NCBI GenBank assembly: GCA_035530055.1
Contig: DATKVN010000045.1
Span: 1 to 36,137, forward strand
Direction: 5' to 3'
From: a bacterium
GTDB lineage: Bacteria > UBA6262 > WVXT01
Length of the DNA stretch: 36,137 nucleotides
Numbering within the stretch: position 1 is the first letter of the stretch; each line of letters begins with the position of its first letter. Positions 27,412-34,374 of this stretch are shown here, piece after piece. The notes under the pieces are model-generated. The model saw nothing but the letters and a program-made list of their open reading frames with translations. It searched no databases and was not told the origin of the DNA. Made by a program: the position numbers and the translations under genes.

Positions 27412-28763
27412 AAAGAATTGTGCAAGTAGTTCATGATTTTTTACCCGGGCATCCTTATGGAACGGAAAATTATACCTACCACATTTCTAAAGAATTACAA
27501 AAAATAAACAAAGTTTATATTTTCTGTCGGGAAGGGAACGATTCTTTTGGCAAAGACTTTTCTAAAGATGAATTATTCGATGGATTGCTGGTTAGGAGGC
27601 TATACTTCAACCCGCGTTTGATTTTTGATGACAGTTATCGAAATTCCTTTGTGGATAAAGAATTTGAACGTTTCCTTAACGAAATCAAACCGGATATCGT
27701 GCATTTTCAGCATCTGTTGGGTTTATCCGCTTCGATGCTAGAGATTGCCAAGCGAAGACGCATCCCTACGATTTTGACCTTGCATGATTTCTGGTTTCTC
27801 TGCCCACAGGTCCAGCTGTTGACTAACGGTAATCAGGTTTGTTCTGGTCCGGATTCAAAGGATAAATGTGCGAACTGTGAGAAGATTTCTTATACTTACA
27901 GAAAATTGGAAGGTTTTAATGATAGGATAGTCAAATTTTTAAAATATCCTCCTGAACCTTTGAAAACTGTGAAGAAATTAGTTCCCTCGAGCTTCAAGAC
28001 CACACTTAAAGAAAAATTCGTTAAGGCCCATCCTGCCATAGCCTCTATTACTCCCGATATGATAGCGAGAAGGTCAAGATTCTTAAGGGATATGCTCGAT
28101 AAGACGGAGAGGATTCTTGCCCCTTCGAGATTTCTAAGAGAAAAATTTATGGATTATATACTACCGAAAAATAGAATTGTCCATTTAGGTTATGGAATTG
28201 ACCATAAACTCCTTGCTAATTTCAGTAAAGAACCTTCAAATAAATTGCGCTTTGGATTTGTTGGTGGTGTTTCGGAACATAAGGGGATAAGAGTTCTCAT
28301 AAGGGCATTTAATAAAATCAAAAGAGATAAAGTATCTTTATTTATATTCGGACCTTATGACCAATCTTATTTGAACAAATTGAGAAAGGAGTTAAAGGCA
28401 GATTCGAGAATTACTTTTTATGGAGCGTTTAATAATAAAAATATTTCTTCGGTATTCTCTAAGATTGACGTGTTGGTTTATCCTTCAATCTGGTATGAGA
28501 ATCAGCCAATTGCTATTTTGGAGGCGCTACTTGCTAAAATACCGATTATCACTTCCAATCTGGGAGGTATGGCTGAACTTGTCCAGGACAGGGTTACGGG
28601 TCTTCTATTTGAAGCAGGAGATCCAGAAGATTTATATCAGAAGATGGTGAGTGTAATTAATAATCCGGAATTACTGAGAAGATTATCAGAGACTCCGAGG
28701 CAAGTTAAAACCATAGAAAAGAATGCCGGAGAGCTGAATGAAATTTACGATTCTCTCCTGTAA
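27408..28763 (+). CDS. GT4 family glycosyltransferase, paralogue of the preceding gene
   Basis: 451 residues. MKRIVQVVHDFLPGHPYGTE and HFQHLLGLSASMLEIAKRR mirror the upstream GT4. It has the same cysteine spacing, C132-x12-C145-x8-C154-x2-C157. The C-terminal half has FGFVGGVSEHKGIRVLIRAF, and YPSIWYENQPIAILEALLAK carries the retaining E-x7-E motif. The ATGA overlap with the upstream gene means coupled translation, and probably two related sugar additions. The acceptor is unknown. A palindromic repeat cluster follows the stop at once. Confidence 0.9.
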   Translation: MKRIVQVVHDFLPGHPYGTENYTYHISKELQKINKVYIFCREGNDSFGKDFSKDELFDGLLVRRLYFNPRLIFDDSYRNSFVDKEFERFLNEIKPDIVHFQHLLGLSASMLEIAKRRRIPTILTLHDFWFLCPQVQLLTNGNQVCSGPDSKDKCANCEKISYTYRKLEGFNDRIVKFLKYPPEPLKTVKKLVPSSFKTTLKEKFVKAHPAIASITPDMIARRSRFLRDMLDKTERILAPSRFLREKFMDYILPKNRIVHLGYGIDHKLLANFSKEPSNKLRFGFVGGVSEHKGIRVLIRAFNKIKRDKVSLFIFGPYDQSYLNKLRKELKADSRITFYGAFNNKNISSVFSKIDVLVYPSIWYENQPIAILEALLAKIPIITSNLGGMAELVQDRVTGLLFEAGDPEDLYQKMVSVINNPELLRRLSETPRQVKTIEKNAGELNEIYDSLL

Positions 28764-28835: not shown

Positions 28836-31349
28836 ATGAAGATATTAATTGTTAGCCATAATTATTTTCCAGCTATTGGCGGGGCTGAGAAGAAAATAAA
28901 AGAGATCTCAGAAAGGCTGGTAAAATCCGGGGAAGAAGTTACTGTCTTTTCTTCTAATGCCCAAACTACCGAGGCATATATCCATCCTGAAATTCCTTTG
29001 CTGCCTGCCAATAGTGAATTGATAAATGGTGTGAGAGTAAGAAGGTTTCCCGTTTACCAGGGGATGCGACCATTAATAGATAGTGTGCATAGGTATTTCT
29101 ATAAGCATGGGTTGCGATTTGATGATGTTGTGAGGACTATATGGAATGGACCAATCATATTCAATATGCTACCGCACATTATCAAAGAAAAAACCGATAT
29201 TATTATTGCCACACCATTTCCATTTTTGAATATGTATTATGCCTATATAGCAAAAAAAATCAGGAAAATACCAATGGCAGTTATTCCTTGCCTGCACACA
29301 GAGGATGAATGGGCTTTCAATAGAAAGATAATGTATAAAGTCTTGTCAGATACTGAAATGATACTAGTAAATACAGATTACGAAAGAAATTATCTAATAA
29401 CTAAGGGAATCGAAAAAGAACGTATCTTCATATTAGGGGATGGAATCAACCCACAGGAGTTTAATAGTTCGAATCCACAGAAGTTCAGGAGAAGATACGA
29501 TATTGGTAACGCTCCTGTGGTTCTGTTTGTGGGAAGAAAGGAGAAGGGGAAAGGGATTGATACATTGGTTGATTCTATGAACATAGTCTGGAGAAAAATT
29601 CCTCAGGCTAAACTTATCCTGGCAGGGACAAGGACATCCTATTCGAAAGCAATAGAAAAGAAGGTCTTTTCGTTAGATGCGAGAAAAAGAAAAAACATCA
29701 TACCTATAGATAATTTCCAAGATAGTGAGAAATCAGACCTTTTTGCCAGCTGCGATATATTTGCAATGCCATCAAGAGTAGAATCTTTTGGGATAGCCTA
29801 TCTGGAAGCGTGGGCATCAGGCAAGCCAGTTATTGGATGCCGCATAGGTGCAGTGGCTTCTCTTATTGAACAGGGAAAGGATGGCATACTGGTGGAGTAT
29901 GACAACGAGCAAGAATTAGCGAGTGCCATACTGAGACTTCTCACCTATGAAGGCCTGAGAAGGAAGCTCGGGGAAAATGGCAGAAAGAAGGCATGTGGCA
30001 AATATACCTGGGATATTATTACAAAGCGTTTTAGGGAGAATCTCAATCTGGCCATATGTAAGGATAATAGGAGTAGCAGACTTCAGTCTGCGTTTATTAG
30101 GAAGCAGGGAGTCATTAGAAAAAGTTTGGTAATTCCAGAAATATTTGATACTGCAAAAATAGTTATGATGGACCTCAAAGATGCGATAAAAAAGATATTA
30201 AGAAGGGTCCCGCTACTCTTCTACATAACATATCATCCTTATCACAAAGTAAAAATCCATCTTCTTATAAAGAACAGTCCTATGAAACTCAAAACTTATA
30301 ATGAACAATTGGCAGAGGAAGAACAAAAGCGCCGTTCTCCTATAGCCAGGGCAATGCCCACGTTTATGGCCATGAATATGGATACTCAATGTAACTTACG
30401 CTGCATAATGTGCATACGTGGAAAATATCCTCAAGAAGAGATCAATGCGCTTAGATATGATTTCGAAATCTATAGGCAAGTAGCTAATGAGACTTTTCCC
30501 TATGCGAGCTGGGTGCAGTTAGCTACGGCAGGAGAGCCGCTTATGGCTGGTAATCTTATAGAACAATTAAGAATTATTAACAAATACTCTATGAAGTTAG
30601 ACCTGGTTACCAATGCGACTCTGCTCAACAATGATGACTTAATAAAAAAAATTTTACAAGTTCCTGGTTGTTTACATATATCAATTGATGGAGCTACAAA
30701 GGAAACCTATGAATCCATTAGAATTGGTGCAAAATTTGAGCAAGTGATAGAAAACATTAGAAGACTCAATCGAATTAGGGAGAAACTTTGTGCTGCGGAC
30801 AAGACGAGATTGCATTTTTCAGTTGTGTTGATGAAGCGAAATATTAAGGAATTGCCAAAGTTAATAGAACTCGCTAAAAAACTTGGAGTGGACTCTGTAG
30901 ACTGTTCCCATGTAACTATTTTCTATGAAAGCATCAAAAATGAATCTTTAGTTTATCATAAGGAACTTGCCAATTGTTATATGATGGTTGCCCAAGAAAA
31001 AGCCAATGAGTTAAATATCCACTTGAATATTCCCCCATTATTTAAACCGGTTGATGATGTGCAGAGCAAAAGGTCAGAGAATAACTTAAAAAGCAAATTT
31101 AAAATATGCCCATTTTTATGGAAACGAGCTTATATCGAGTGGACTGGAAATGTTTTACCATGTTGTGCTCCCGACCCTCCAGTAATGGGCAATGTTAAGG
31201 AAAAACCTTTTCGGGAAATTTGGAATAATGAACTTTACCAGGAAATGAGAAGGAGATTGAATACCGATAATCCTTTTGACTGTTGCAAGCATTGTTTTAT
31301 CGTTAATCCTGCTGATGAGCAAGGTTTGTTTCATATCGATGGAGAATAA
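28836..31349 (+). CDS. Fusion: GT4 glycosyltransferase + radical SAM/SPASM enzyme
   Basis: 837 residues in one uninterrupted frame. Residues 1-405 form a GT4 enzyme: MKILIVSHNYFPAIGGAEKK, VLFVGRKEKGKGIDTLV, and MPSRVESFGIAYLEAWASGK with the E-x7-E motif. A linker (about 410-505) begins with RSSRLQSAF (412-420), encoded by a GTAGC palindromic repeat. Residues 510-837 are radical SAM: C519-x3-C523-x2-C526, ATAGEPLM, and a SPASM-type auxiliary cluster with CPFLW, TGNVLPCCAPD, and CCKHCF near the end. SPASM enzymes modify peptides or sugars, so a radical change of the glycan is plausible. AAGGGAT precedes the ATG. An internal ATG pair near 30164 could also make the second part alone. Confidence 0.88.
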   Translation: MKILIVSHNYFPAIGGAEKKIKEISERLVKSGEEVTVFSSNAQTTEAYIHPEIPLLPANSELINGVRVRRFPVYQGMRPLIDSVHRYFYKHGLRFDDVVRTIWNGPIIFNMLPHIIKEKTDIIIATPFPFLNMYYAYIAKKIRKIPMAVIPCLHTEDEWAFNRKIMYKVLSDTEMILVNTDYERNYLITKGIEKERIFILGDGINPQEFNSSNPQKFRRRYDIGNAPVVLFVGRKEKGKGIDTLVDSMNIVWRKIPQAKLILAGTRTSYSKAIEKKVFSLDARKRKNIIPIDNFQDSEKSDLFASCDIFAMPSRVESFGIAYLEAWASGKPVIGCRIGAVASLIEQGKDGILVEYDNEQELASAILRLLTYEGLRRKLGENGRKKACGKYTWDIITKRFRENLNLAICKDNRSSRLQSAFIRKQGVIRKSLVIPEIFDTAKIVMMDLKDAIKKILRRVPLLFYITYHPYHKVKIHLLIKNSPMKLKTYNEQLAEEEQKRRSPIARAMPTFMAMNMDTQCNLRCIMCIRGKYPQEEINALRYDFEIYRQVANETFPYASWVQLATAGEPLMAGNLIEQLRIINKYSMKLDLVTNATLLNNDDLIKKILQVPGCLHISIDGATKETYESIRIGAKFEQVIENIRRLNRIREKLCAADKTRLHFSVVLMKRNIKELPKLIELAKKLGVDSVDCSHVTIFYESIKNESLVYHKELANCYMMVAQEKANELNIHLNIPPLFKPVDDVQSKRSENNLKSKFKICPFLWKRAYIEWTGNVLPCCAPDPPVMGNVKEKPFREIWNNELYQEMRRRLNTDNPFDCCKHCFIVNPADEQGLFHIDGE
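30073..30095 (+). repeat. GTAGC-type palindromic repeat in the hinge of the fusion gene
   Basis: GTAGC with stem GCAGACT/AGTCTGC (30076-30082, 30085-30091) and loop TC, then GTTTA. It is almost the same sequence as the intergenic copy at 34352-34374. It is read in frame as SSRLQSAF between the GT4 and radical SAM domains. Confidence 0.85.
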
Positions 31350-33611: not shown

Positions 33612-33634
33612 GTAGCAGACCTCGGTCTGCGTAA
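33612..33634 (+). repeat. GTAGC-type palindromic repeat between MerR-like genes 1 and 2
   Basis: GGAGTAGC with perfect stem GCAGACC/GGTCTGC (33615-33621, 33624-33630) and loop TC, then GTAAAA. Confidence 0.85.
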
Positions 33635-34351: not shown

Positions 34352-34374
34352 GTAGCAGACTTTAGTCTGCGTTT
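34352..34374 (+). repeat. GTAGC-type palindromic repeat (GCAGACT core)
   Basis: GGAGTAGC with stem GCAGACT/AGTCTGC (34355-34361, 34364-34370), then GTTTA. Near-identical to the in-gene copy at 30073-30095. Just upstream, GAAAAAAGTACCTGTCACC with a T-run (34318-34344) is another imperfect palindrome that may act as a terminator for the MerR-like genes. Confidence 0.85.

Follow-up and report, generated by a model that had tools for sequence, protein, structure and literature searches.

A GT4−Radical SAM Fusion Carries a Repeat at Its Hinge

The window, by which we mean the whole 36,137-nt stretch of contig DATKVN010000045.1 analyzed here, contains on its forward strand, at 28,836−31,349, an open reading frame encoding 837 aa that runs without interruption through a GT4 glycosyltransferase and a radical SAM/SPASM protein. 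Pfam places Glyco_transf_4 at residues 14−207, Glycos_transf_1 at 217−384, Radical_SAM at 517−679, and SPASM at 758−820. Just past the GT4 domain, at 30,073−30,091, lies GTAGCAGACTTCAGTCTGC, a REP core with a CAGAC stem that is translated in frame as SSRLQSAF from residue 413. Near-copies are present on the same strand at 34,352−34,370 (one base different, identified by pattern match) and 33,612−33,630 (two bases different), both intergenic and both with the CAGAC stem. A sequence-only reading had described the hinge repeat as palindromic, dispersed, and in frame at the end of the GT4 domain, and this description holds. A further forward-strand REP core, with a CGAAG stem, occupies 27,374−27,393, close to the end of the preceding gene. 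An Rfam search of positions 28,500−36,137 returned no match, and an AlphaFold2 model of the fusion, built from a three-sequence alignment, was set aside because of its mean pLDDT of 35.8. We note that three consecutive small genes of the MerR family (84, 86, and 92 aa; 33,325−34,274) lie beside the intergenic REPs and that a separate dispersed repeat, TGTAGGGGCGAC..., occurs at 92−151 and 18,649−18,708 as 60-nt copies that are 93% alike.

The Hinge Repeat Has the Features of a GTAG-Type REP

When up to three mismatches are allowed, the GTAGCAGACTTCAGTCTGC pattern has 114 matches in the 1.68-Mb genome, 36 of them exact, versus one for the reversed control. The hinge element has the layout GTAG-CAGACTTCAGTCTG-CG, in which an unpaired GTAG tag stands directly before a short hairpin; such a tag is given by Di Nocera et al. 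(2013, PMC3733652) as the mark of GTAG-type REPs. In 661 kb, 155 hairpins stand directly behind a GTAG, compared with 9, 9, and 3 behind the control tetramers GATG, GTTG, and CTAG. The copies have in common an outer frame, GGAGTAG-C...G-CGT, that encloses differing stems, among them CAGAC, CTCCGAT, CAGAG, CGAAA, CACCGC, CCCCGAT, and CAGGTT. The framed pattern GGAGTAGC...GCGT was counted 148 times in the source genome (G000), 107 times in G003, 38 times in G001, and 4 times in G002. On these sequence features, the hinge repeat is a GTAG-type REP of 19−30 nt. It is a single REP rather than an inverted doublet; inverted doublets of other stems occur elsewhere. In G003, the loops of two REPs with CTCCG stems (L112 ∼5883 and L124 ∼4139) each enclose another palindrome.

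The Fusion Exists without the Repeat in a Congener

The sequence-only reading had further proposed that insertion of the repeat removed a stop and so fused two genes. G003, a congener MAG (WJOT01; contig WJOT01000098.1, labeled Clostridia bacterium isolate 1244-F3-H4-B3), encodes an orthologous fusion as one uninterrupted 895-aa ORF (L108:2320−5007) whose hinge has no REP. The two fusion proteins are 79% identical, and the unbroken frame in an independent MAG supports the frame in the window as real. At the hinge, LNLAIWRHNR|KQELLRKSL of G003 aligns with LNLAICKDNR|SSRLQSAFIR|KQGVIRKSL of the window. The linkers differ in length here by exactly 10 codons, the extra residues falling between DNR and KQG. 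In the DNA, the unit added relative to this sister gene is 30 nt, AGTAGC...GCGTTTATTAGG, at 30,072−30,101 on the forward strand, the exact ends being our reading of the alignment; it is longer than the 23-nt repeat delineated earlier at 30,073−30,095. The G003 linker has itself been enlarged by an internal duplication of ∼150 nt, which suggests that the region tolerates insertions. As judged from these sequences, the simplest reading is that the GT4 and radical SAM parts were already joined when the hinge REP inserted in frame between them. A less likely alternative is that G003 later lost the REP exactly, only two genomes being known to carry the fusion. No ortholog of the fusion was found in G001 or G002, where only weaker matches occur, and no GT4−SAM fusion was recognized outside the genus among the 60 genomes searched. 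Long ORFs in G017 and G040 that were considered as candidates encode SAM-type proteins with no GT4 half evident by eye.

G003 also contains a second, degenerate copy downstream, in which the end of a GT4 gene is followed by a SAM gene (L108:5265−6673). At the hinge of this copy, a REP sits at the identical place with closely matching flanks on both sides, but with the stem CTCCGATGAATCGGAG; its CTCCGAT-type core (L108:5363−5383) is two bases longer than that of the window, and the frame is broken there. The copy belongs to a tandem duplication spanning L108:5106−6673, in which it is preceded by a fragment from the start of the GT2 gene that lies downstream. The idea that the repeat created the fusion draws on its position at the domain border and on this paralogue, where a REP-bearing hinge comes before a separate SAM frame. 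However, the fusion of G003 exists without the repeat, an outcome of the kind that the sequence-only reading itself had named as a refutation, here in a single relative, and because the end of a GT4 gene stands upstream of the SAM part in the paralogue, the latter looks like a decayed fusion. We therefore consider creation of the fusion by stop removal scarcely credible, and the case is a caution against crediting a fusion to a repeat merely because it lies where two domains meet.

Matching Sites Carry REPs with Different Stems

The comparison of genomes, all of them draft MAGs, was extended to REP-bearing stretches of ∼779 kb in G000, 748 kb in G003, and 281 kb in G001, and the counts that follow apply to those stretches only. 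Where the flanks of a G000 locus could be matched in G003, a script classed 10 loci as identical, 15 as having other stems with the same units and orientation, 13 as REP-less in G003, and 18 as complex. Of the "identical" loci, L174:3905 matches by chance, and the "empty" class contains at least one overlooked REP, in the gene for MreC, whose 22-nt core escaped the script and was recovered by alignment. Two of the 15 stem-swap loci, both on L173, were omitted because they match several places, while L185 and the window site at 33,612 (aligned with L108:10547−10567, CTCCGAT in G003) were retained despite poor right flanks, which diverge at L185 and, at 33,612, further out. Hand alignment gave 13 swapped pairs, namely, 12 orthologous sites and the window hinge versus its G003 paralogue.

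In all 13 pairs, the frame GTAG|C...G|CGT and the orientation are constant, and both stem arms have been exchanged together. Letter by letter, the swap is bounded by GTAG or GTCG on one side and by CGT on the other, and the letters beside the stems agree except for a few substitutions (L174, L182, window 30,073, and L170). Core identity is 0.48−0.68 at swapped sites versus 0.95−1.00 at retained ones. The clearest case is L168:15113 versus L127:5971, in which 60 identical bases lie on each side. At L170:4308 and L184:10988, the recipient has the rarer GTAGTCGC (GTCG) frame, which is preserved around the new stem. Hairpins half-swapped between CAGAC and CTCCG were not found. The loop is reversed in 3 of the 54 CTCCG cores of G003, and all three are at swapped sites; assuming that swapped sites account for 15 of the 54 cores, the chance of this is ∼0.018, a figure that rests on an estimated 15 sites and on a test chosen after the data had been seen.

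Three of the loci have orthologs in G001 (L168:15116, L174:2301, and L184:8127). At each, G000 and G001 share CAGAC while G003 has CTCCGAT, so that the change probably occurred in G003. At the MreC site, the new stem is common to G001 and G003, but the local sequences of these two also resemble one another more (98% alike) than they do G000 (94%), which leaves the direction of that swap unpolarized.

In-Gene Copies Keep the Reading Frame

Claims about REPs within genes are limited here to cases backed by Pfam and by orthologs. Judged solely by the length of ORFs, 15 of the 235 G000 REPs would lie in genes, a count that was not trusted. Besides the hinge, in-frame REPs occur in MreC (PF04085) and in a Radical_SAM_N2 protein, and both sites are empty in G002. 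In these two genes the core is 19 nt with a CAGAC stem in G000 and 22 nt with a CTCCG stem in G003, a difference of three. The other 52 CTCCG cores detected in G003 measure 21 nt, and the 22-nt length, found only at the two in-gene sites, means that the reading frame survives. Selection to keep the frame probably explains this. With regard to a possible donor, the two sites with this rare core lie ∼5 kb apart in opposite orientation, and parallel slippage could also yield it. Such in-gene swaps indicate that proteins absorb changes of this kind if the frame is kept. A TonB-like receptor of G003 (L131:7124−8743) contains three in-frame REPs, none of which is present in the G000 ortholog (L177), a difference of 51 nt. 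We also note that in the MreC gene of G001 (L223) the REP is followed on its right by 21 additional nt that repeat GGAAATCCACAAGA from its left; these may be a duplication that arose when the REP inserted.

REP-Associated Transposases Are Present in the Genus

The source genome has eight matches to Y1 transposases. L015 and L016 of this genome, together with L250 of G003, exceed the cutoff of NCBIfam model NF047646, the REP-associated tyrosine transposase (RAYT). REPs with CACCG and CGAAA stems flank L015, and REPs with CAGAC and CAGGT stems flank L250; the RAYT with CAGAC-stem neighbors is thus in G003 and not in G000. Hairpins of the GTAGGGGC and GTAGGGAC types border other RAYTs. The G001 and G002 genomes are devoid of Y1 transposase matches, although G001 holds 38 framed REPs; their RAYTs may have been lost or may lie in missing sequence.

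Relation to Known REPs

Di Nocera et al. (PMC3733652) describe GTAG REPs that, like those studied here, combine a GTAG tag with a short hairpin, occur in many copies, and are mostly intergenic but in some cases lie in frame within genes, so REPs inside genes were already known. The paper also mentions recB, in which two Xanthomonas species have different REPs at roughly the same place. It differs from our findings in describing many stem families per species or group and, as far as the accessible text goes, no systematic in-place replacement at orthologous sites. The sequence-only reading had likened the hinge repeat to the palindromic elements of Rickettsia (RPE). The likeness stands in kind, in that palindromes lie in frame within genes (here at the hinge, MreC, and radical SAM sites; for RPE, as cited in PMC3733652), but the features tested assign the hinge element to GTAG-type REPs, and its tag and its size of 19−30 nt set it apart. 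In that paper, the in-gene RPE-4 and RPE-6 of R. conorii are grouped with CGTC repeats, and RPE-1 is longer.

As in described RAYT/REPtron systems, REPs flank RAYT genes here (Nunvar et al. 2010, PMC2817692; 2013, PMC3686654). Those authors define an orthoswitch, in which the REP class differs beside orthologous RAYT genes of related strains and the old dispersed REPs are expected to remain and decay (PMC3686654). The orthoswitch concerns REPs adjacent to RAYTs, whereas here the dispersed REPs themselves appear to be replaced. REPINs are likewise short palindromic mobile DNA tied to RAYTs, but their moving unit is an inverted doublet (Bertels and Rainey 2011, PMC3116915), unlike the single REP of the hinge. 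Our search, which covered mostly open literature, turned up no previous account of stems being systematically replaced in place. How REP families spread and replace one another is an unsettled question, and alleles with different stems at the same site and near-identical flanks distinguish replacement from new insertion. Such alleles are natural, countable events with which RAYTs and other hairpin-processing enzymes could be tested.

Proposed Replacement in Place and Its Alternatives

We propose, with confidence that is evenly balanced, that the fusion was in place before a REP entered its linker and that hairpins in the genus were later replaced in place by conversion-like copying. A GTAG-type REP, of the kind mobilized by RAYT (Y1/HUH) transposases, would have inserted in frame in the interdomain linker, which presumably tolerated the ten added residues as a harmless hinge peptide. 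Resident hairpins would then have been overwritten by hairpins from another REP family, rather than changed by drift alone, through templated copying between REPs anchored on their shared GTAG-C and G-CGT ends, and products that kept the frame would have been retained within genes. Gene conversion was reportedly proposed for REP evolution by Higgins et al. in 1988; the process envisaged here is of the same kind, but an unrelated stem is exchanged, which makes it directly visible. The trigger may be fork stalling at the hairpin or nicking by a RAYT, a possible starter of swaps since RAYTs bind single-stranded REPs and cut beside them (PMC8266576). The new stems at swapped sites belong to abundant families. 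Counting against conversion are the very short shared ends, which offer little for homologous recombination, the lack of an identifiable donor among the REPs compared, and the failure to find a RAYT flanked by CTCCG-stem REPs. A bolder version, which we hold to be less likely than not, is that REP hairpins are interchangeable cassettes and that a dedicated, perhaps RAYT-driven process lets a spreading family overwrite resident stems with its own, whichever way round the palindrome lies. If so, a REP family could come to dominate a genome through conversion of sites that already hold a REP, without new insertions.

The same alleles could arise if a REP with a new stem inserted head-to-tail beside the old one and slippage between GGAGTAGC or GCGTTT ends then deleted the older unit. 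Direct dimers of mixed stems are indeed frequent (21 in G000 and 17 in G003), and loci vary between single and dimer states, such as [Z] in G001, [Z][Z] in G003, and [Z][C] in G000. This tandem route would nevertheless need extra steps to account for the kept GTCG frame of the recipient and the three reversed loops, and genes would have to tolerate the intermediate as well. We regard it as rather unlikely and favor conversion, although the data do not decide between the two. An artifact of assembly or binning is very improbable: all of the genomes are fragmented MAGs, and short repeats can confuse assembly, but cores of ∼20 nt are shorter than usual reads, and independent genomes concur on the flanks and, several times, on the stem. 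Finally, REPs could have inserted separately in each lineage at a common target, as lineage-specific REPs and empty sites are common. Such independent insertion would require a strong target motif and is improbable in our estimation. An ancestral REP at the swapped sites in an outgroup speaks against it, and at three of them G001 shares the CAGAC allele of G000. Random placement gives on average 0.16 coincidences of place and strand, or 1.5 if only one-tenth of the sequence is open to insertion, and the maximum in 2000 trials was 7, compared with the 13 observed.
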